Shown here: one piece after another, positions 12,760 through 30,890 of the stretch | Numbering within the stretch: position 1 is the stretch's first letter | Layout: the number at the start of each line of letters is the position of its first letter | Made by a program: the position numbers and the translations under genes | Notes under the pieces: model-generated | Database searches by the model: none | Told to the model about the DNA's origin: nothing | The model's input: only the letters and a program-made list of their open reading frames with translations | NCBI GenBank assembly: GCA_023664085.1 | Contig: JAMPGE010000002.1 | Span: 1 to 64,000 of the forward strand | Length of the DNA stretch: 64,000 nucleotides | Reading direction: 5' to 3' | Source: Muribaculum sp. | Lineage (GTDB): Bacteria; Bacteroidota; Bacteroidia; Bacteroidales; Muribaculaceae

Positions 12760-14112
12760 TTATATGGCGCTTGGTGTGGCTTTCGGAGGAAGTATCCGGT
12801 GTGCGGCGGCTGTGACTGCCAGAGTGGCCACGGAGGTCAGCATAACAAGCCAGAAGAAGTTGATGTAGCCCTGGGGAGTATCGGCATCGAAAAGATAGAT
12901 GTATCCAAGCATTTTCCATATCCAGCCTGCAGCCATGCCGGGAAGCATCATGCCGATGGCCATGAAAGCGGTGCAGAAAGCATAGTGCGAAGTGGCGTTT
13001 TTTCCGTCTGCAAAGTAGATGAGATACATCATGAAGGCCGTGAATCCGAAACCGTAGCCGAACTGTTCCACGGCTATGGCACAGGCCGTGATCCAGAATT
13101 GATGGGGTTGCCACATGGCAAGCATACAATAGAATACGCAAGGCAGCGTAAGACTCAGTGCCATTGGCCAAAGCCATCGTTTGAGTCCGTGGCGTGCTAT
13201 TGCGAGTCCTCCGATAATGCCGCCGAGCAGAAGTGCTATCACCCCTACCGTGCCGTTGGCAAAGCCCACTTCCTCAAGCGATAAAGCCAGTCCTCCTTCT
13301 TGATACGGAGCAAGCAGAAACGGACCTGTAAGCTTTATGCACAGAGCTTCCGGCAGACGATAAAGAAGCATGAACGCCAATGCCACTCCTATGTACGGCT
13401 TTTGGAAGAATGTAAGGAATGTGGAGAAAAATTCCTTGACAATATCTCCCGATTTCAGATTTGAACGGGCGTGATCTGAGGCTGGGCGCGGCATACCCTT
13501 TATGTGCCAAAGGGCGATAACCAGAAATAGGATTGAGAGCAGACCGAATGCGATCTGCCATGAAAGGGTTATATTGCCGTTTGTCTTCTGAAGATAACCT
13601 ACGTATATCACCAGTCCGCCTTGTCCGAGCACCGATGCCACCCTGTAGAAAGTGGAGCGTACGCCGACATAGGCGGCCTGTTGCTCCTTGTTGAGTTCGA
13701 GCATATAGTAGCCGTCGGCGGCAATGTCGTGAGTGGCCGATGCAAAGGCTATGATCCAAAATACTGCGAGAGTGGAGGCAAAGAAAAATGAAGCGGAGAG
13801 TAGAGCGGCAATCAGGGCAAAGCATACGGCGATTGTAAGCTGCATGATTATCACCCATAAGCGTTTGGTGGAGAATAGATCTACAAAAGGGCTCCAGAAT
13901 GGCTTTATCACCCACGGAAGATACAGCGCTCCGGTGTAGAAAGCCATTTCAGTGTTGGATATACCGAGTTGCACATACATCAATACGGTGAGCACGTTGA
14001 CTGCAAAATAGGGAAGCCCTTCGGCAATGTATAAAGATGGAATCCAAAACCAAGGGGATCGTACTTGGCCCGGGTTTTCTGAAGAATTATTGTTTTTGTT
14101 GTGATTAATCAT
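12760..14112 (-). CDS. AmpG-like MFS permease
   Basis: A 450-residue inner-membrane protein with about 12 hydrophobic segments. The N-terminal half (PSLYIAEGLPYFAVNVLTVLMY and GALYLPWVIKPFWSPFVD) matches the AmpG muropeptide permease branch of the major facilitator superfamily, which imports GlcNAc-anhydroMurNAc(-peptide) for cell-wall recycling. It is the last gene of the minus-strand operon and starts 20 nt after spoIID. The pairing with a SpoIID/LytB peptidoglycan protein supports a wall-fragment substrate, though substrate assignment by sequence alone is not secure within AmpG-like proteins. Confidence 0.8.
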   Translation of the reverse strand: MINHNKNNNSSENPGQVRSPWFWIPSLYIAEGLPYFAVNVLTVLMYVQLGISNTEMAFYTGALYLPWVIKPFWSPFVDLFSTKRLWVIIMQLTIAVCFALIAALLSASFFFASTLAVFWIIAFASATHDIAADGYYMLELNKEQQAAYVGVRSTFYRVASVLGQGGLVIYVGYLQKTNGNITLSWQIAFGLLSILFLVIALWHIKGMPRPASDHARSNLKSGDIVKEFFSTFLTFFQKPYIGVALAFMLLYRLPEALCIKLTGPFLLAPYQEGGLALSLEEVGFANGTVGVIALLLGGIIGGLAIARHGLKRWLWPMALSLTLPCVFYCMLAMWQPHQFWITACAIAVEQFGYGFGFTAFMMYLIYFADGKNATSHYAFCTAFMAIGMMLPGMAAGWIWKMLGYIYLFDADTPQGYINFFWLVMLTSVATLAVTAAAHRILPPKATPSAI

Positions 14113-14132
14113 GAAGATTGGGAAGAATTGGT

Positions 14133-15251
14133 TCAGTAAAGTTTGAGAATTTTAGTGCCGGGATAATAAAAGGAAAGAATATCCTCGCAGTGGAATCCTT
14201 CGGCAGCCATGCGTGCTGCTCCGATCTGACAAAGACCTACACCGTGGCCCCATCCGCGTCCACGCATCAAAAGCCTGCGGGAACTGACGGTGGGCAGAAA
14301 AGCAGATGACATTAGGCAATCCTTAGCGAGCAATCTTCTTATGGTCAATTCTTTCCCTATCGTGATTGAATCTTTGTCTCCTTCAATGGCGAGTGAATAT
14401 ATCCTTCCGGACGGTCCCCGTTCAATTGGAATGACATTTTTGATTTCTCCCAAATCCACACCGTATTTATCCAGTATTTTCCGCCGGAGTTCGGCCGAGG
14501 AGATTTCCGCCGTCCAGTTTCCCCATAGAGTGTCTGTGTCGCGGCTATGCAGGTCGTAGTCCTTGAGAATTCCGGCCAGCAGCAGTTGGCGTCGGGAGGC
14601 GGGAAAGGTGGAAAGATCGCAGTAGAGATCCTGCACACTCCTCAGATAAGGAAGGTCAGTATCTTGCCAGCAGGTGGAAAACAATTCGGTCTTTCCGCCG
14701 CAGCATTTTGAGAATCGAGCGTCGGCCACGTCACCGTTTTCATCTCCGAGCACCATGCCGGATGTGTGGGAGATGGCCTGGGATGCAACATCGCTGATCG
14801 TCTGTATGCCCTGATACCTTTGGCAGTGGTCATCGGCGCATACGTCATACGGGTCATCGCTATGGTCGGCCGCGTCTTCCCATGTGCTGATCCGATTGCC
14901 ATGCATTGGGCAGGCATGATTAACGGTGAAATTGGGATGCATAATCATTCTGCAGGCCCAGCTTCTTGATATTATGGCGTGGGCTTTCAGAAACTCGACG
15001 GGAGCGGCCGGGTTCATTTCACTTCCCACCACACACCTTAGATATTCCTCTACAGGCAACGTGTTGATCACAAGGTGCGGAATGCTTGGAATCTCTATTT
15101 CGCCCGGCAGGCGTACGGAGATAGTCTGTTGCCAGTGAAAACCATTGCCGATGCTGAGATTCTCAAGGCGCCAGCATGGACCGTCGCGATGGATGCGGGG
15201 AGAACCGTCCGTGGTGAGGCCTACGCGAATGTGAGTCGGGAATTCGATCAT
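14133..15251 (-). CDS. SpoIID/LytB-domain protein
   Basis: A 372-residue protein with the SpoIID/LytB core: LPVEEYLRCVVGSEMNP (the catalytic-region Glu of SpoIID lies in this VVGSEM segment), AHAIISRSWACR, and the C-terminal RGRGWGHGVGLCQIGAARMA ... YYPG signature. SpoIID is a lytic transglycosylase on peptidoglycan stripped of stem peptides. Odd here: no signal peptide is visible; the protein starts MIEFPTHIRVGL and its ATG overlaps the upstream stop (ATGA), which leaves no room for a longer N-terminus. It also carries extra cysteines (DVCADDHCQRY, CCGG). Translationally coupled to the thioesterase gene. Confidence 0.85.
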   Translation of the reverse strand: MIEFPTHIRVGLTTDGSPRIHRDGPCWRLENLSIGNGFHWQQTISVRLPGEIEIPSIPHLVINTLPVEEYLRCVVGSEMNPAAPVEFLKAHAIISRSWACRMIMHPNFTVNHACPMHGNRISTWEDAADHSDDPYDVCADDHCQRYQGIQTISDVASQAISHTSGMVLGDENGDVADARFSKCCGGKTELFSTCWQDTDLPYLRSVQDLYCDLSTFPASRRQLLLAGILKDYDLHSRDTDTLWGNWTAEISSAELRRKILDKYGVDLGEIKNVIPIERGPSGRIYSLAIEGDKDSITIGKELTIRRLLAKDCLMSSAFLPTVSSRRLLMRGRGWGHGVGLCQIGAARMAAEGFHCEDILSFYYPGTKILKLY

Positions 15252-16003
15252 CGGTTGCTGAATAACGTTCGGGCATACAGTATCGGTGTTTGCTCTTGAT
15301 CCTCGATATAAAAAGCGGTGTGCAGGTTGTTGAGTGGACTGTCGGCGCGGCGTATGGTCACTTCCATACCGTAGCGGGCCTCATGCAGGAATGAGAGCTC
15401 CAGACGCGACATGCGAAATTTATCGTAAGTCTCAAGTGGAAGTTGATTGAGCAGCAACTGCACGTATCTCACGGTATTGACGTGGCGATAGGAGTCGAGA
15501 TCGCAGTATTTGAATCTATAATGGGTGTCGGGATGCGACGGCAAAAGGCCGCCATTGCCTATTTTTTCGTGTTTTAATTGTTTAGGAATCGGACATACCC
15601 TATCGCTGAAGGAGTCGGGAGGGAGGTTGAGAGCGGTGAGTCCGGCATTGGCACGGGTTTTGGTGTTGAGAACCATCCAGATGCTTCGGGCATATCCCAG
15701 AGGGTTGCCTTCCTTGTCGGCAATCATAAACGCGCGTTGAGAAAAATGGCGGTTCCAGCTTTCTATCCATGTAGTGATGGAGTAGGATTCGTTTACGCGG
15801 GGGTAGCGTTCCATATCTGTAGTCAGGCGCGAAAGCACCCATCCGGTGTCGGGATCGGGCATATTGGGATTACCGATGCCGAGGGCATTGGCGTGAGCCG
15901 TGGCGATATCTATAAGTTTGCTCACCAGCAGAGGGAGAGCCATCTCCTTTTCTGCGTCGGCCTCACCGGCGGAGAGAAAAAAGTTTTCGGTAAATTCTTT
16001 CAT
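15248..16003 (-). CDS. Acyl-ACP thioesterase (FatA/FatB-like)
   Basis: About 251 residues making two hot-dog folds. The first (to about 145) has NRHFSQRAF. The second carries YRFKYCDLDSYRHVNTVRYV, the D-x-x-x-H-V-N-x-x-x-Y active-site segment of plant-type acyl-ACP thioesterases. It releases free fatty acids from acyl-ACP in the cytoplasm. The start is the ATG of MKEFTENFFLS; six upstream codons could be read from a TTG but add nothing typical. It follows gph by 30 nt and overlaps spoIID by 4 nt. Confidence 0.88.
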   Translation of the reverse strand: MKEFTENFFLSAGEADAEKEMALPLLVSKLIDIATAHANALGIGNPNMPDPDTGWVLSRLTTDMERYPRVNESYSITTWIESWNRHFSQRAFMIADKEGNPLGYARSIWMVLNTKTRANAGLTALNLPPDSFSDRVCPIPKQLKHEKIGNGGLLPSHPDTHYRFKYCDLDSYRHVNTVRYVQLLLNQLPLETYDKFRMSRLELSFLHEARYGMEVTIRRADSPLNNLHTAFYIEDQEQTPILYARTLFSNR

Positions 16004-20884: not shown

Positions 20885-23800
20885 ATGAAACTACGCAGAA
20901 TCGTTTATATCCTGATAGCGGCAGTCATTGCCATGGCTTCTGTGTCGTATACCTCCGAGGCCTTTGCCAAGCGCTCCAAGGCCAGGACGTCGCAGAGTGC
21001 CAAATCCTCCAAGACTAAGAAAAACAGAAAGAAAAGTAAATCCAAGAAAAAAACTTCTTCCAAAGGCAAGAAAAATTCCAAAAAGCGTAAGGATTCAAAA
21101 TCACGGCGCACGAAGGGCAAATCCGGAAACACGGGTCGGCGCAGCTATACCCGCGGCAACTCCACGTCAAATGTGCCTAAGGAGACTCCAAGCTATGATT
21201 CGCTGACCCTGCGTGTGAATCAGGCGTTGCTGGACCGAATACCGGCCAACCATAATCCCGGCGGTCTCAGGGTAAACAGTGTCAAGACCGATAGCCGGAG
21301 CAAGACGGCACGTCTCAGTCTGAATGAGAATTTTACGTATCTTCCTGTCACGCAGGAGATGATCAAGCAGCTCTCGCATGCTGCGGAGGATGCTCTACCC
21401 GATTCTTTGAGCGATTATCGAGTGCAACTCAACGTGGGCAACCGTTCGCTGAGTTATTATATCACGAAAATTGACAAACTCCCCGAGGCCGCCCGCAGGA
21501 ATATACCCTTTGTGGTGGCCGCACAGCCATGGTGCAATCCAAAGCACGGCATGGAAGGCGACATCATAGCCATGTGGCACAGTCATGGCCGATATTACCG
21601 AGGAAGCGGTTGGCAGTGGCAGCGCCCGATGCTGTTTCAGACCGTGGAGGATATTTTCACCATGACATATATACTGCCGTATGCAGTGCCGATGCTTGAA
21701 AATGCCGGAGCTTATGTGCTTCTTCCTCGGGAAAGGGATCCAAATCCCAACGAAGTGATCGTGGACAACGATACCAATGAAGACGGCCGGATTTATTCCC
21801 AACCCTATTATAAGGAAAGCAAAGGCTCCAAGGCATGGCAGACCGGTGAGGAAGAGGGATTTATCTACGACCTGCCCGATTTCCGCGACACTGAGAATCC
21901 CTTCGAGAACGGCACTTATCGGCAGACCGTTACCGTGAAGGGGGGCACACCGTCGATCGCGGCGTGGTACGCCGATATCCCGGAAGACGGCGAATATGCG
22001 GTCTACGTAAGTTACAAGACACTCCCCAACTCCACCAAAGACGCCCACTATGCAGTGAATTATTCCGGCGGTACAAGGGAATTCCGGGTAAATCAGCAGA
22101 TGGGAGGAAGTACCTGGATCTATCTTGGTACGTTCCCCTTCCGCGCGGGCTATAGCGATACCACGCCTCTGGTAACTTTGACGAATCTTACTGAAGGGCA
22201 GGCGGGCACGGTAGTCACGGCGGATGCCGTGAAAATAGGTGGCGGTATGGGCAATATCGCCAGATCCGCTTCCCGTTCGGATATCTACTACGATCCGTCC
22301 ACTCCGGAATCCGATGTGGCGCAAAATGCGTCGAAGTCGGTGCAGGACGACGAAGATGCCGATGATGAGGATGATGATGAGGATGAAGACGGGGAAGAAG
22401 ATGAGGATGAAACCGACGAAACAGAGGGTGACGAAGACGTAGACGGCGGTGACGGTCAGCCTGCTCCGGCCGAAGAAAAGGAGGCTGAGCCGGTGAAGAA
22501 AGGTAAGGCTCCGGTGTTTCGCACCAGCGGGCTTCCCCGCTTCGTGGAAGGCGCACGATATTGGATGCAGTGGGCCGGAGTGCCGGAGGAAGTGTATTCC
22601 CCCTATCATGGCAGGGATGATTATAAGGATGACTATACCGACCGCGGCATGTGGGTAAACTATCTTGCGGGCGGCTCAAGGGTGCTTCCTAAGCGCGAGG
22701 GCCTGAATATTCCGGTGGATGCAGTGATGGCTCTGCATTCCGATGCCGGCAAGCGTAGCGACGATTCGTTTGTAGGCACCCTCGGTATATATTATACCAA
22801 CGGCGGAGGCAATTATGCCGACGGCACTCCCCGTATAAATTCCCGTATGCTCACCGATATGCTGATGCGTCAGATCGTAAGCGATATCCGTCAGAGCTAC
22901 GAACCCCGCTGGACACGCCGCTCAATGTGGGACAAGAGTTATCTTGAGGCCCGCGTGCCGGAGGTGCCCACGGCCCTTATCGAATTGATGAGCCATCAGA
23001 ATTTTGCGGATATGATGTATGGTCTTGACCCCGGTTTCCGATTCACCGTGGGCCGCTCCATCTATAAAGCCCTCGGCAGATTCGTGTCGGAAAGAAAGGG
23101 ACGGGAGTTTGTGGTGCAGCCTTTGCCTGCAAGCAATTTTGCCGTCAAGCGGCTTAAGAAAGGCCACTATCGCCTTTCCTGGACAGCTACTCCCGATTCT
23201 CTCGAACCTACCGCAAATCCTTCAAAGTATATTATCTTGGAACGCAGCGGCGATGAATTAGGCTTTCATAAGATCGCTGAGACCAAACATACATATTTCG
23301 AATTCCGGACCTCCGATCATTCGATCCATAGTTTCCGCATCGTTGCGGCCAACGACGGCGGTCTGTCCTTCCCCACGGAGACTTTGGCTCTCTGCGAGGG
23401 GGAGAATAATGACAAACCAGTATTGATAGTCAACGGATTCTCCCGCATATCCGGTCCAGCCCGCATTAATTCCGACGGAAAGGCTGGTTTCAATTCCGAG
23501 GAAGATTTCGGAGTGCCCTATATCCGTGAGATAGGATTCTCGGGATACCAGACGGAATTCCGTCGCGGCGCCGGAGAGAGCCATGGACGCAGCGGCAGCA
23601 ACTATATCGGCAGGGTGATTGCCGGCAACACTTTCGATTATCCCTTTATCCACGGTGAGGCAATAGCCATCTCGGGGAGAGGATTTGTGAGTTGCTCACT
23701 CGGTGCGGTCGAGAACGGCACTGTAAAGCTCACCGATTACAAAGTGGTGGATCTGATACTTGGCAAGCAGAAGGCTACCGTGGTGGGCAATGGCAAGAGT

Positions 23801-24286
23801 GGGGTGCGCTACACGGCGTTCACACCGAAGCTGCAGAGTATGCTGCGTGCTTTCACCAAGGGAGGAGGCCGTCTTCTCGTGAGCGGTGCTTATGTGGGCA
23901 GTGATCTTTATGATTCCCGTCAAGGGGAGGCCGGAAGAGAATTCGCCGCCGAAGTGCTCGGAATAGAGCCTGTGCCCGGTGAGAAGATCGACCGTGCCGG
24001 CCGGGTGTATGTCAAGGGTAACATAATGGCCGGTGTAGGTCAGATTCCCTATTCCTCCACTCTCAACGATACTCATTATATAGTGGAGCGTCCTGACATA
24101 CTGGAGCCCGCCGGCAATGGTGAGACGATCTTCACCTCTGCGGATAGTTCTCAAGGTCTTGGTATCCTCAGTCGCATAGGTAAGAGTAGGGTGGCCGTAA
24201 GTTCCATACCGCTGGAGAGTATCACCGATGAAGAGGTGCTCGACAAGGTGATGGCCCGTCTTCTCGATTGGCTCGAGGAAAATTAA
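20885..24286 (+). CDS. Large exported amidase-like protein with golvesin-type insert
   Basis: A 1133-residue protein with a signal peptide (to about AFA28), then a Lys/Ser/Arg-rich stretch (about 29-95). A zinc-amidase (Amidase_3-like) fold appears to be split: IIAMWHSHGRYY (about 226-237), AVMALHSDAG (about 613-622) and TALIELMSHQNF (about 696-707, Glu about 700) match the H, H and E regions of N-acetylmuramoyl-L-alanine amidases. Between them lies a beta-domain (about 330-460) resembling the golvesin C-terminal domain (ADIPEDGEYAVYVSY) and a 38-residue Asp/Glu run (about 485-522). A fibronectin-like domain and a further C-terminal domain follow. Such proteins are often annotated 'xanthan lyase', without evidence for that activity in this sequence. 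First gene of a three-gene module. Confidence 0.7.
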   Translation: MKLRRIVYILIAAVIAMASVSYTSEAFAKRSKARTSQSAKSSKTKKNRKKSKSKKKTSSKGKKNSKKRKDSKSRRTKGKSGNTGRRSYTRGNSTSNVPKETPSYDSLTLRVNQALLDRIPANHNPGGLRVNSVKTDSRSKTARLSLNENFTYLPVTQEMIKQLSHAAEDALPDSLSDYRVQLNVGNRSLSYYITKIDKLPEAARRNIPFVVAAQPWCNPKHGMEGDIIAMWHSHGRYYRGSGWQWQRPMLFQTVEDIFTMTYILPYAVPMLENAGAYVLLPRERDPNPNEVIVDNDTNEDGRIYSQPYYKESKGSKAWQTGEEEGFIYDLPDFRDTENPFENGTYRQTVTVKGGTPSIAAWYADIPEDGEYAVYVSYKTLPNSTKDAHYAVNYSGGTREFRVNQQMGGSTWIYLGTFPFRAGYSDTTPLVTLTNLTEGQAGTVVTADAVKIGGGMGNIARSASRSDIYYDPSTPESDVAQNASKSVQDDEDADDEDDDEDEDGEEDEDETDETEGDEDVDGGDGQPAPAEEKEAEPVKKGKAPVFRTSGLPRFVEGARYWMQWAGVPEEVYSPYHGRDDYKDDYTDRGMWVNYLAGGSRVLPKREGLNIPVDAVMALHSDAGKRSDDSFVGTLGIYYTNGGGNYADGTPRINSRMLTDMLMRQIVSDIRQSYEPRWTRRSMWDKSYLEARVPEVPTALIELMSHQNFADMMYGLDPGFRFTVGRSIYKALGRFVSERKGREFVVQPLPASNFAVKRLKKGHYRLSWTATPDSLEPTANPSKYIILERSGDELGFHKIAETKHTYFEFRTSDHSIHSFRIVAANDGGLSFPTETLALCEGENNDKPVLIVNGFSRISGPARINSDGKAGFNSEEDFGVPYIREIGFSGYQTEFRRGAGESHGRSGSNYIGRVIAGNTFDYPFIHGEAIAISGRGFVSCSLGAVENGTVKLTDYKVVDLILGKQKATVVGNGKSGVRYTAFTPKLQSMLRAFTKGGGRLLVSGAYVGSDLYDSRQGEAGREFAAEVLGIEPVPGEKIDRAGRVYVKGNIMAGVGQIPYSSTLNDTHYIVERPDILEPAGNGETIFTSADSSQGLGILSRIGKSRVAVSSIPLESITDEEVLDKVMARLLDWLEEN

Positions 24287-24299
24287 AAAAGATTGAATT

Positions 24300-25676
24300 A
24301 TGAATTATAAAGAGGTTTATAGGTTTCGCAATGTGGCGGACCTGCGGGAGACAATCTTCCATACCACGCTCAAACAATACATTCTTGTGCGTCTTGATGA
24401 CAGGGAGGTGGAACTGATGCCCCACGCCGTGCGGCGAATGCGACAGGTGGCTGAGGATTCTGATGCAGCCATGGTCTATTCCTGCTATCGCGAACGACTC
24501 GACGACGGCACTCTCGTGGATCATCCTGTGATAGAGTATCAGCCCGGATCCGTACGCGATGATTTTGATTTCGGGGCACTTGTGCTCCTGAATATAGCCG
24601 ATGTGCTCTCGGTGACGGAAGATTTTACCGAAGAGGATTCCGCTTCTTTGGATGGCGGCTGGTATGCATTGCGTCTGCGTCTGAGCACGGCCAATATGCT
24701 CGTGGATTTGCCCGAGTATCTATACACGGTGGGCAGAGTGGACTATCGTAAGAGCGGCGAGAAGCAGCACGATTACGTCAATCCCCGCCAACGTGCATAC
24801 CAGCAGGAGATGGAACGCGTGCTGACCGAGCATCTCTATGAGATAAATGCACTGGTGGAAAATTTTGAGAAGGTGGACCCCGAAGAGGGTGATTTCCCGG
24901 TAGAGGCCAGTGTGGTGATACCGGTCAGAAACCGTGTGAACACCATCAGGGATGCCGTGGCATCGGCATTGTCGCAGGAAACGGACTTTACGTTTAACGT
25001 GATAGTGGTGGACAACTGCAGCACCGACGGCACATCCGAAGCACTCGATGCCATTGAGGATTCCCGCCTTGTTGTGATCCGTCCGCAGGCATCGGAGGGT
25101 CTTGGTATTGGCGGATGTTGGAACAGGGCTATTCTTTCGGAGTATTGCGGTCGCTACGCCGTGCAACTTGACTCCGACGACGTATATTCTTCAGCTGCCA
25201 CACTGCAGAAAATCGTAGATAAATTCAATGAAGAATGTTGCGCAATGGTGGTGGGCAGCTATAGGCTCACGGATTTCCAACTCAACGAACTGCCGCCGGG
25301 AGTGATCAGCCATAACGAATGGACCGAAGAAAACGGTCCGAACAATGCCCTGCGGGTGAATGGCTTCGGAGCGCCACGCGCTTTTTATACCCCGGTAGTG
25401 CGCCAGATACTCTTTCCAAACGTAAGCTACGGGGAGGATTATGCCGTCTGCCTGCGTATCAGTCGCGAATATGCCGTGGGCCGTATCTATGAACCCCTCT
25501 ACAACTGCCGGCGCTGGGAAGGCAATTCCGATGCAGCCCTTTCGGTGGAGAAGGTAAATGAGCACAACAGTTATAAGGACTTTGTGAGGTCGCTGGAGGT
25601 GATGGCCCGTATCCGGGCCAATTCACGCGAGGAGGCCGTCTCGGCTGATTCCGACGATGATGAAGAGGAAGAATAA
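24300..25676 (+). CDS. Family 2 glycosyltransferase with N-terminal extra domain
   Basis: A 458-residue cytoplasmic protein. Residues about 200-430 are a GT-A fold: EASVVIPVRNR, VVDNCSTDGTSEAL, and the metal-binding AVQLDSDDVY. Residues 1-195 look like the back half of another GT-A domain (LDDREVELMP, FDFGALVLLN, GGWYALRLRLS) without its nucleotide-binding start, so this may be a fused or degenerate duplicate. The tail is acidic (DSDDDEEEE). Donor and acceptor are unknown. It starts 13 nt after the amidase gene and precedes DUF4922 by 44 nt. Confidence 0.85.
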   Translation: MNYKEVYRFRNVADLRETIFHTTLKQYILVRLDDREVELMPHAVRRMRQVAEDSDAAMVYSCYRERLDDGTLVDHPVIEYQPGSVRDDFDFGALVLLNIADVLSVTEDFTEEDSASLDGGWYALRLRLSTANMLVDLPEYLYTVGRVDYRKSGEKQHDYVNPRQRAYQQEMERVLTEHLYEINALVENFEKVDPEEGDFPVEASVVIPVRNRVNTIRDAVASALSQETDFTFNVIVVDNCSTDGTSEALDAIEDSRLVVIRPQASEGLGIGGCWNRAILSEYCGRYAVQLDSDDVYSSAATLQKIVDKFNEECCAMVVGSYRLTDFQLNELPPGVISHNEWTEENGPNNALRVNGFGAPRAFYTPVVRQILFPNVSYGEDYAVCLRISREYAVGRIYEPLYNCRRWEGNSDAALSVEKVNEHNSYKDFVRSLEVMARIRANSREEAVSADSDDDEEEE

Positions 25677-25720
25677 TAATTAGGAATGAGGGAAGAGGAA
25701 TTAGGAATTGATTAGGACAT

Positions 25721-26611
25721 ATGGAAGATTTGAGGGATTTTGTGGAACTGCAGTTGGAACGCTGGCCCTTTGCTGCGGCCAATTATCATGGTCTCGGAGC
25801 TACGGAGCGCCGCACGTTTATGCTGGGCGACTTCCCCTGCGCGGTGCAGTATAATCCGGCAAGGATACGGTCCACCGGTGCGAAGGTAGATGCCAAAAGC
25901 ATAGGAGAGCGCCCGTGTTTCCTTTGCAAAAACAATCGACCTGACGAGCAGATCTCCGGCATCGCCATCGAGGGATGGGAACTGCTTGTGAACCCCTATC
26001 CGATTTTTCCTTTGCATTTCACCATACCGTCAATGAGTCATGATCCTCAGGGAGAACTGCCATTGGAGATGGCTGCATTGGCCGAGAAATGGCCCGGGAT
26101 GGCTATCTTCTTTAATGGAGCCAGAGCCGGTGCTTCCGCCCCTGATCATGCACATATGCAAATGGTCGGCAAGTGGGAACTCCCGATTGTGGCACTGACC
26201 GAAAAGATACACCACTCCGCCCGCGGCGGTATCGTGGATTCCGTAGTGTTGGCTGCTGAGCAGGGGCTCTCATTGCCGTTCGCCTGGAAGAGCGCGGTGA
26301 TCACACCCGATTTGGAAGGGATGAAGACCCTTGCCGCACTCCCTAACATATATGGCGTTGATGCCGAAACCGGAGAACCAGACCGCGGATTGGTGAATGC
26401 GATAATGTGGATAGGAAGCGACAGACTGTTGCGGGCCGTAATCATACCGCGCAAACGTCATCGTCCGGCCTGCTATTATGCCGGAGAAGATGAAAAAATG
26501 CTCGTGAGTCCCGGCACGATCGACATGGCGGGAGTGATAATTCTGCCCCGCAGAGAAGACTTCGATCGGATCACACCGGAAGATGTAGCTTCCATATACG
26601 GAGAAGTGTAA
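25721..26611 (+). CDS. DUF4922 HIT-like nucleotidyltransferase/phosphorylase
   Basis: A 296-residue protein with the histidine-triad-type motif H143-A-H145-M-Q147 in SAPDHAHMQMVG and a Cys pair (PCFLCKNN) in the N-terminal half, as in GalT, Ap4A phosphorylase and GDP-L-galactose phosphorylase relatives. These enzymes transfer a nucleotidyl group through a phospho-histidine. The substrate is unknown. Being co-directional with the amidase-like protein and a GT2 suggests it makes or recycles a nucleotide sugar for that system (inference). The gene ends at a strong bidirectional terminator. Confidence 0.75.
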   Translation: MEDLRDFVELQLERWPFAAANYHGLGATERRTFMLGDFPCAVQYNPARIRSTGAKVDAKSIGERPCFLCKNNRPDEQISGIAIEGWELLVNPYPIFPLHFTIPSMSHDPQGELPLEMAALAEKWPGMAIFFNGARAGASAPDHAHMQMVGKWELPIVALTEKIHHSARGGIVDSVVLAAEQGLSLPFAWKSAVITPDLEGMKTLAALPNIYGVDAETGEPDRGLVNAIMWIGSDRLLRAVIIPRKRHRPACYYAGEDEKMLVSPGTIDMAGVIILPRREDFDRITPEDVASIYGEV

Positions 26612-28961: not shown

Positions 28962-30890
28962 ATGAAAAAACTACTACTATTGGCGATAGTGGGTATATTG
29001 TTGCCGCTATGCGCAAATGCGGGGGATATATCCGTCTACTTCCAACTCCCGGCCGGGTGGAATGCCTCCTCCCTTCACTGTTATTACTTTAATAAAGGGG
29101 GCAACGGCAATAATGAATGGCCAGGCACAGTGTGGAAATCGGGAAATTCGATTGTCTCCAACGGAGTGACATACTACAGATTCTCCATTCCCGATTGGGC
29201 TACCACGGTTATATTCAATCAAGGCAGTAGCGGAAGTAAGACTGACGACTTGAAAGTGCTGCCCAACGGCTGCTACGACAACAGTATGACAAAAGAAACC
29301 GTCCCTTTTTATTTTATTGACAATGGTGATAAATATCAGTATGTGGCTCTTCTCGGAAACAATGGTATTTGGGAAGTCAGTGTAGGTAAACTCTTTTCTA
29401 CTAAAGACGGGGTAACTTATACCTATTCCACAAATTCCTTCAGCGGAGATTTCAAGATATGGGTAGCAGACAACTGGTATAGCATTTCGCCTCAGACAGA
29501 ATTGGCGCCCAATACGGATTATAAGCTTGACAATAATAAAGAAAATCCCAACATGAAGCTGAAGGAAGGCACCATGACCGATGTGGTTTTCACTTTCAAT
29601 CTGGACACCAAGACGCTTAGCTATAAGCAGACTCAATACGAGGATATCAATGTGTATTTCGACAATTCGTCAGCCCAATGGAGCAACGTATATTGCTATG
29701 CCTATAATGGCGATGAGGATAAAAATGCGGAGTGGCCCGGAGTGCAGGTCACTGAAAAGACCGGCAATCTTTATAAGGCCACATATAGCTCGCGTTACCA
29801 ACACGTGATCTTCAACAATAATAACGGAGCCCAGACAGCAGACCTTGATACATACTTCAACGGTGTATACACAAAAGATTCGCAAGCCAATACCGATCCT
29901 AAGCTAACCTACAACGGATCGAAATACGCCTACGTGCGGGCACCGTATGCCGTAAAGGTAGCCGGAGAGTCAATTCCCGAGGACTTCACAGTGGAAGCTG
30001 TAACCGTAAGACCGGAAGGATCTACCTACTGGCAGAGTGATGATTCCTACGCCGCATTCAATCTTGGTTTTGTCCAAGCCAACAACAGTGGCCTCACTTT
30101 TGATCAGGATTCTCCGTCTTTGTTCAAGGTTACACTTACTCCTGAATTCGAGAATTATCCCAATGCCGTAAATTTCAGCTATCTGCCTTCAAGTAAGCTT
30201 AAAATGAACGGATCGGCTTTGGAAGCTCAGGTACACGTTGTGTATGCGGGAGAATATATCATGGAAGTTTCCTATACGGAGGATGAAAACTACGAGCCTT
30301 ACGTGCTGACATTCCCCGTGAAGGTGCTTCCCACCGTAGCATCCCTCGGCATCACACTCAACGGAAACCCCGTGGCAAGAAACAACGGTTCCGTTTCCAA
30401 TTACGGACCTTATTATAAAGGAACATTGCCTGCAGGCTACAATTCGATAGAAGAATACAATATGAAGAATGCACGTCTGCTGCTCACCCCCGTGGCATTG
30501 GGCAATTTCGATCTGAATAATTACTCTACGGTGTGGTATATGTTGGTTGACAAAGAAAACACATTGCCCACTCGTGCCACTTCCGATGTAATCACCGTGA
30601 CCAACCCCGAGGAAGAGGGCTATACCAAGTATGATCCCGCTCACCCCACCATGGATCTCACTAACAGGACCCTGCGTCTTGTCATGAGCCAGAACGGAGT
30701 GATGAATCCCACGGTATATGCCACCACACCGCTGTATGATTCGAAAATAACCACGGCAGTAGAAGCCATCGCAATTGAAGAAAATCAGGAAACGATCTAT
30801 TACAATCTGCAGGGAGTGAGAGTGGAGAATCCCGAACATGGTATCTATGTGAAAGTAGCCGACGGAAGAGCAAGTAAAGTGATACTATGA
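28962..30890 (+). CDS. Secreted protein with two CBM26-like starch-binding modules
   Basis: A 642-residue protein with a signal peptide (MKKLLLLAIVGILLPLCANA). Two related modules, about 22-97 (DISVYFQLPAGWNASSLHCY ... EWPGTVW ... VIFNQGSSG) and about 226-300 (DINVYFDNSSAQWSNVYCYA ... EWPGVQV ... VIFNNNNG), match the CBM26 pattern of aromatic residues and WPG, which binds starch-like glucans. Beta-rich regions continue to about 600. The last 40 residues (TIYYNLQGVRVENPEHGIYV...) match the end of the next gene's product and probably act as a sorting or anchoring signal. No catalytic domain is seen. Binding rather than cleavage is inferred. Confidence 0.75.
   Translation: MKKLLLLAIVGILLPLCANAGDISVYFQLPAGWNASSLHCYYFNKGGNGNNEWPGTVWKSGNSIVSNGVTYYRFSIPDWATTVIFNQGSSGSKTDDLKVLPNGCYDNSMTKETVPFYFIDNGDKYQYVALLGNNGIWEVSVGKLFSTKDGVTYTYSTNSFSGDFKIWVADNWYSISPQTELAPNTDYKLDNNKENPNMKLKEGTMTDVVFTFNLDTKTLSYKQTQYEDINVYFDNSSAQWSNVYCYAYNGDEDKNAEWPGVQVTEKTGNLYKATYSSRYQHVIFNNNNGAQTADLDTYFNGVYTKDSQANTDPKLTYNGSKYAYVRAPYAVKVAGESIPEDFTVEAVTVRPEGSTYWQSDDSYAAFNLGFVQANNSGLTFDQDSPSLFKVTLTPEFENYPNAVNFSYLPSSKLKMNGSALEAQVHVVYAGEYIMEVSYTEDENYEPYVLTFPVKVLPTVASLGITLNGNPVARNNGSVSNYGPYYKGTLPAGYNSIEEYNMKNARLLLTPVALGNFDLNNYSTVWYMLVDKENTLPTRATSDVITVTNPEEEGYTKYDPAHPTMDLTNRTLRLVMSQNGVMNPTVYATTPLYDSKITTAVEAIAIEENQETIYYNLQGVRVENPEHGIYVKVADGRASKVIL

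Follow-up and report, generated by a model that had tools for sequence, protein, structure and literature searches.

The window analyzed here is a 64,000-nucleotide stretch of a Muribaculum sp. contig (JAMPGE010000002.1, assembly GCA_023664085.1), and the region in question is a trio of genes encoding a predicted exported amidase (AMI), a family-2 glycosyltransferase (GT2) and a protein of the DUF4922 family. The trio consists of three intact open reading frames (ORFs) on one strand, separated by intergenic gaps of 13 and 44 bp, a spacing that is operon-like (Table 1). A sequence-only reading of the same DNA had described this three-gene arrangement, and it was borne out, as were its domain calls: a golvesin-split zinc amidase, a GT2 with an extra N-terminal part and a phosphorylase of the GalT, diadenosine tetraphosphate (Ap4A) or GDP-L-galactose phosphorylase (GGP) type. 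Comparison of neighborhoods makes it highly probable that the trio forms the leading part of a Bacteroidota peptidoglycan-salvage operon, i.e. the operon for AmpG and N-acetylmuramic acid (MurNAc) utilization, in a reduced and rearranged form; this is an assignment to a pathway and not to reactions. The other two operon genes retained here are those for a SpoIID-type protein and for AmpG (12763-15254).

Domains and folds of the trio proteins

The amidase has a signal-like N-terminus and a Lys-rich linker. A Pfam search of the window protein itself identified a Golvesin_C domain at residues 342-451 (E 5e-24) and no amidase match. Across the aligned family, Amidase_3 (PF01520) weakly matched 26 of 27 members (E <= 1; best 1.3e-4), so that the single-sequence search had missed a domain that alignments and structures were needed to reveal. 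Structure prediction, proposed in the sequence-only reading as a check of the split amidase, gave an AlphaFold2 model with a mean predicted local distance difference test score (pLDDT) of 80.3 and a predicted template modeling score (pTM) of 0.85. The model aligned to many Amidase_3 structures, including AmiA, CwlD, Rv3717 and LytH, with Z of 17-19 and best root-mean-square deviations (rmsd) of 2.1-2.7. Since this alignment (model residues 113-644) begins ahead of the golvesin domain, ends beyond it and takes in both flanking halves, the golvesin domain is an insert within one catalytic domain, and in the model the two halves form a single Amidase_3 domain.

H234, E255, H618 and E700 were invariant in an alignment of 27 AMI homologues. 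Assigned by motif, the first three are candidate zinc ligands and E700 is the candidate catalytic residue. An earlier placement of the zinc site at H232/H617/E700 stands for E700 and fails for H232, which is replaced by Q or P in nearly all relatives; H617 is actually H618, and E255 had been overlooked. Downstream of the catalytic domain lie an FN3-like domain (residues about 745-835) and a C-terminal region of ~290 residues (about 842-1133) with a ThuA/GATase1-like fold, which resembles the non-catalytic domain of GH42 enzymes. A long linker rich in Asp and Glu (about 464-545), which joins the golvesin domain to the second half of the amidase, is absent from the other 26 aligned relatives. 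The golvesin domain also matched the C-terminus of a solved xanthan lyase; identification of AMI as a xanthan lyase was rejected, as the golvesin domain alone accounts for this match.

The catalytic domain of GT2 starts at residue 204 (Pfam, E 8e-20), and Glycos_transf_2 was found in all 16 family members examined. The DSDD (D291-D294) and GED (G378-D380) motifs were invariant across the family, providing the DxD-type metal motif and the ED base motif expected of an inverting GT2. Residues 1-200 were also conserved within the family; a profile of this N-terminal extension matched no sequence in the PDB, a result that neither confirms nor excludes the 'half-domain' suggested earlier.

The third protein matched the DUF4922 domain (Pfam, E 2e-50), and C66xxC69, H107 and H143xH145xQ147 were invariant in its alignment. 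A single-sequence search against the PDB yielded no usable match, and here too alignments and structures were needed. The structure model (mean pLDDT 82.7) aligned over nearly its full length with the yeast Ap4A phosphorylase Apa2 (Z 22.8, rmsd 2.9, 256 residues), with weaker fold matches to GalT, ADP-glucose phosphorylase and CDP-diacylglycerol pyrophosphatase (Z 7-9); profile similarity to Apa2 was weak (E 7e-6). The residues of a GalT-type zinc site (CxxC plus two His) have invariant counterparts by alignment in C66, C69, H107 and H143, which represent a candidate site only. By analogy with GalT and Apa2, H145 is presumably the nucleotide-carrying histidine. On its modeled fold and HxHxQ motif DUF4922 is a member of the Ap4A phosphorylase/GalT (HIT) superfamily, a placement that does not in itself predict a substrate. 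The literature retrieved for DUF4922 dealt with plant ascorbate GGP genes only and gave no bacterial function.

Table 1. Genes of the trio and the two other retained operon genes in the window.
Feature	Position	Strand	Description
AMI	20885..24286	+	exported Amidase_3-type N-acetylmuramoyl-L-alanine amidase (predicted), golvesin-split; 1133 aa; predicted zinc ligands H234, E255, H618; predicted catalytic E700
GT2	24300..25676	+	cytoplasmic family-2 glycosyltransferase (predicted); 458 aa; conserved ~200-aa N-terminal extension; invariant DSDD and GED motifs
DUF4922	25721..26611	+	Ap4A-phosphorylase/GalT-fold protein (modeled); 296 aa; invariant CxxC, H107, HxHxQ
SpoIID/LytB-domain protein	14136..15254	-	without signal peptide; invariant E78; conserved H130/C138/H142/C143; directly 3' of DUF4922 in most relatives
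AmpG-family muropeptide transporter	12763..14115	-	best NCBIfam match TIGR00901, below curated cut-off; directly 3' of SpoIID in most relatives

Linkage to salvage genes across the Bacteroidota

Gene neighborhoods were compared for DUF4922 loci from Bacteroidota genomes and for 80 named loci found with the GT2 alignment; the named loci were selected by GT2, so the frequency of AmpG without GT2 cannot be read from them. The consensus gene order was AMI, GT2, DUF4922, SpoIID, AmpG and NamZ, with MurK and MurQ further on. GT2 in the named loci was usually followed by DUF4922, SpoIID, AmpG and NamZ, with AMI often 5' of GT2, and GT2 accompanied AmpG throughout the operons from outside the window's family. 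The Bacteroides fragilis locus (L111) reads NamZ, a Na+/solute symporter (MurT-like), AMI, a metallophosphatase, GT2, DUF4922, SpoIID, AmpG, NamZ, a flavin adenine dinucleotide (FAD)-linked 2-hydroxyacid dehydrogenase-like protein, an HGSNAT-like protein and MurK; the dehydrogenase-like protein would suit the D-lactate released by MurQ. At another locus (L047), MurK matched solved MurNAc-kinase entries from work on Tannerella forsythia MurK/K1058 (E 1e-95 and 1e-71). Because the neighbors elsewhere are SpoIID, AmpG, NamZ, a MurT-like symporter, MurK and MurQ, the trio is assigned to salvage rather than to synthesis.

A phyletic profile of 59 genomes of the window's family revealed GT2 and DUF4922 together in 53 and both absent from the remaining 6. 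The two genes were adjacent in 53/53, SpoIID accompanied the pair in 52 of the 53 (adjacent in 48), AMI was present in 43 and adjoined GT2 in 39, and MurQ was present in 29. Given this adjacency of GT2 with DUF4922 (53/53) and of the amidase with GT2 (39/43), the arrangement is not a product of chance. The neighborhood survey suggested by the sequence-only reading, of DUF4922 with the other two genes, thus found them co-occurring in both the family sample and the named loci.

The SpoIID protein of the window matched TIGR02669 above the cut-off as well as solved SpoIID proteins (E 2e-19 to one of them), and its catalytic-type Glu (E78) and H/C cluster were invariant, indicating that it is intact. 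A simple measure of hydropathy placed hydrophobic segments at the N-termini of AMI and NamZ and none at those of GT2, DUF4922, SpoIID, MurK and MurQ; such a segment was absent in about 99% of 82 SpoIID homologues. Furthermore, many DUF4922-SpoIID fusion ORFs and several GT2-DUF4922 fusions, e.g. in B. xylanisolvens (L123), were detected. The SpoIID-type transglycosylase is probably cytoplasmic, because it is predicted to have no signal peptide and its relatives are fused to DUF4922. Three Bacteroides loci, L123 (10001-12463), L122 and L137, carry GT2 and DUF4922 in one ORF, with no AMI in the upstream stretch examined.

The linkage and fusions also bear on whether DUF4922 might be a housekeeping Ap4A or nucleoside diphosphate (NDP) phosphorylase that has no glycan link and sits in the operon for regulatory reasons. 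Its best fold match, Apa2, and the weak profile similarity to the same enzyme would agree with such a role, which is nevertheless quite improbable given that DUF4922 always occurs together with GT2 in the family and is repeatedly fused to GT2 or SpoIID; moreover, fold alone does not give the substrate.

In the window, SpoIID and AmpG are located upstream of the trio, about 6-8 kb away and on the opposite strand, and not directly downstream. Two genomes of the same genus keep SpoIID downstream: in one (G305) it lies directly 3' of DUF4922, and in the other (G285) a block of BamA/TamA-like, HAD and thioesterase genes lies between DUF4922 and SpoIID-AmpG, all on one strand; relative to G285, the window has the trio inverted. 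The gene order of the window is, on this comparison, a local rearrangement. Between the two parts of the split five-gene set (12763-15254 and 20885-26611) are genes for an outer-membrane BamA/TamA-like protein, a HAD protein, an acyl-acyl carrier protein (acyl-ACP) thioesterase and a fumarase. Downstream of the region, at 28962-30890, a secreted protein carries two CBM26 starch-binding modules.

The sequence-only reading had taken the trio for an independent, undescribed module that makes, transfers and remodels a surface or wall glycan. In its favor, the trio is uninterrupted in the window, with no further glycan gene next to it. This isolation is, however, explained by the local rearrangement in the genus, and elsewhere the linkage to SpoIID, AmpG, NamZ, MurK and MurQ is conserved. 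The claim that no described pathway uses this combination did not hold, since the same order heads an operon already described in T. forsythia (PMC5388701), and the SpoIID and AmpG genes of the window had been overlooked. Of the proposed role, a cell-wall function was retained, while the making or transferring of a surface glycan was not, in view of the salvage-gene neighbors. The neighborhood survey largely refutes the independent module, which is now very improbable indeed.

Several observations weigh against assignment to the salvage operon. In the stretches examined, Proteiniphilum operons lack DUF4922, and those of Parabacteroides sp. P3160, Hoylesella and a Prevotella metagenome-assembled genome (MAG) lack both DUF4922 and SpoIID; two further operons (L090 and L099) lack SpoIID only. 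As GT2 is kept in all of these, it does not strictly require DUF4922 or SpoIID as a partner. In Ignavibacteria-like loci, no salvage gene occurs within some 9 kb of GT2-DUF4922. Searches of the window's own genome, which is 99.5% complete, identified no NamZ, no AnmK and no true MurQ (just a 40-bit SIS match), and a single MurK-like kinase (L168:62-916, near a contig end) that is 38% identical to the L047 MurK. With NamZ, MurQ and AnmK absent, the downstream catabolic route here is not that of T. forsythia. The proposed orthology of the trio with the T. forsythia operon genes, in turn, draws on gene order and annotation.

An apparent loss of DUF4922 in two further loci (L130 and L134) was rejected, as tblastn found the gene hidden by an antisense ORF. 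At L063-L068 (L063 being an Ignavibacteriae MAG, the same as L162) and L084, GT2-DUF4922 occurs with no SpoIID or AmpG within about 9 kb, and some of these pairs are flanked by opposite-strand response-regulator-like genes.

Possible handling of imported peptidoglycan sugars

As a first step of salvage, the exported Amidase_3 enzyme would strip stem peptides from turned-over or foreign peptidoglycan, as its fold and motifs suggest, and the inserted golvesin domain would likely bind glycan. AmpG would then import the peptide-free disaccharides of N-acetylglucosamine (GlcNAc) with MurNAc or 1,6-anhydro-MurNAc (anhMurNAc). In T. forsythia, AmpG has been shown to import GlcNAc-MurNAc and GlcNAc-anhMurNAc, the released fragments being peptide-free (PMC7670621). 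In a third step GT2, DUF4922 and the SpoIID-type transglycosylase may process the imported sugars in the cytoplasm.

For this third step, the preferred scheme, offered tentatively and at a low probability, has GT2 operating in reverse (disaccharide + NDP -> NDP-GlcNAc + MurNAc), DUF4922 phosphorolysing the NDP-sugar to sugar-1-phosphate with recycling of NDP, and SpoIID handling MurNAc-GlcNAc or anhydro-MurNAc linkages. Operons without DUF4922 would stop at the NDP-sugar, itself a wall precursor. It is distinctly unlikely, as a generalization, that Bacteroidota recover imported disaccharides by such cytoplasmic nucleotide-mediated phosphorolysis, in which the reverse glycosyltransferase, the DUF4922 phosphorylase and a cytoplasmic SpoIID would replace NagZ and AnmK and conserve the bond energy.

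GT2 might instead act in the forward direction, with salvaged sugar activated (DUF4922 working towards the NDP-sugar, or recycling the NDP by-product) and transferred by GT2 onto an acceptor inside the cell or onto a wall precursor; peptidoglycan sugars would thereby be reused to build a glycan. Enzymes of the GT2 type mostly work in the direction of synthesis, the active-site motifs of GT2 are intact and invariant, and among solved structures its closest relatives are synthases, e.g. chondroitin synthase. In contrast, the conserved surrounding genes are all salvage genes, the loci surveyed showed no conserved gene for a polysaccharide exporter, polymerase or assembly protein around GT2, and the fold of DUF4922 is that of a phosphorylase; enzymes of this class generally break down dinucleotides or NDP-sugars. 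Forward synthesis is accordingly a possible but doubtful reading.

GT2, DUF4922 and SpoIID could also constitute the missing anhMurNAc route of Bacteroidota that lack AnmK, opening the anhydro ring directly or via a glycosylated or nucleotide-linked intermediate. SpoIID-type enzymes catalyze anhydro-ring chemistry, and the SpoIID protein is predicted to be cytoplasmic. To our knowledge, no enzyme of the GT2, DUF4922 or SpoIID kind opens anhMurNAc. AnmK was found in 3 of the 59 family genomes and was absent from 56, including the window's own, with GT2 and DUF4922 kept in 53. T. forsythia grows on GlcNAc-anhMurNAc without a predicted AnmK orthologue, and its anhMurNAc route was stated as still to explore (PMC7670621). 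SpoIID or DUF4922 is, however, missing from some operons, and Bacteroides ihuae has AnmK as well as the operon, leaving this route rather unlikely.

Whichever chemistry applies, GT2, DUF4922 and SpoIID are candidates for AnmK-free processing of imported peptidoglycan sugars. The gene set is near-universal in the window's family and common across Bacteroidales of the gut and mouth, including Bacteroides and Tannerella, and peptidoglycan fragments from Bacteroidales with this gene set act as host signals. Only the ends of the pathway are annotated (amidase, AmpG, NamZ, MurK and MurQ), with a gap between import and phosphorylation. Assigning GT2, DUF4922 and a probably cytoplasmic SpoIID to this gap reduces the question to one that can be assayed with three proteins, all small and soluble; such an assignment would give the bacterial DUF4922 family its first function.

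Comparison with known systems

AMI resembles the Amidase_3 amidases AmiA, CwlD, Rv3717 and LytH in predicted fold and in the conserved H/E/H plus catalytic-E pattern, and differs from them by its mid-domain golvesin insert, acidic linker and C-terminal FN3-like and ThuA/GATase1-like domains. DUF4922 shares HxHxQ with Apa2, to which its fold likeness is full-length, and with GalT and plant ADP-glucose phosphorylase, to which it is partial (Z 7-8). Identity to this group is about 15%, the invariant CxxC and H107 were not seen in the Apa2 alignment, and some genomes encode DUF4922 as a fusion with GT2 or SpoIID. The SpoIID protein shares the catalytic-type Glu and H/C cluster with Stage II sporulation protein D lytic transglycosylases, but has no predicted signal peptide or membrane anchor, and its relatives are often fused to DUF4922.

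The closest described system is the T. forsythia operon Tanf_08345-08385, a single transcript under GppX control that comprises xanthan lyase (Tanf_08345), gtf, gtf, lytB (amidase enhancer), ampG, ybbC (namZ), murT, murK and murQ (PMC5388701). The Muribaculum genome departs from it in having no NamZ, MurQ or AnmK, and in the inversion that separates the window's trio from SpoIID and AmpG. New here are the linkage across the phylum, the close pairing of GT2 with DUF4922, a SpoIID that is probably cytoplasmic, and the fit to a gap already acknowledged in the recycling of peptidoglycan. The order of the trio is the same in both organisms: the 'xanthan lyase', a name explained by the match of the golvesin domain to the C-terminus of a solved xanthan lyase, would be the amidase, the two gtf genes would be GT2 and DUF4922, and 'lytB' would be SpoIID, followed by AmpG.

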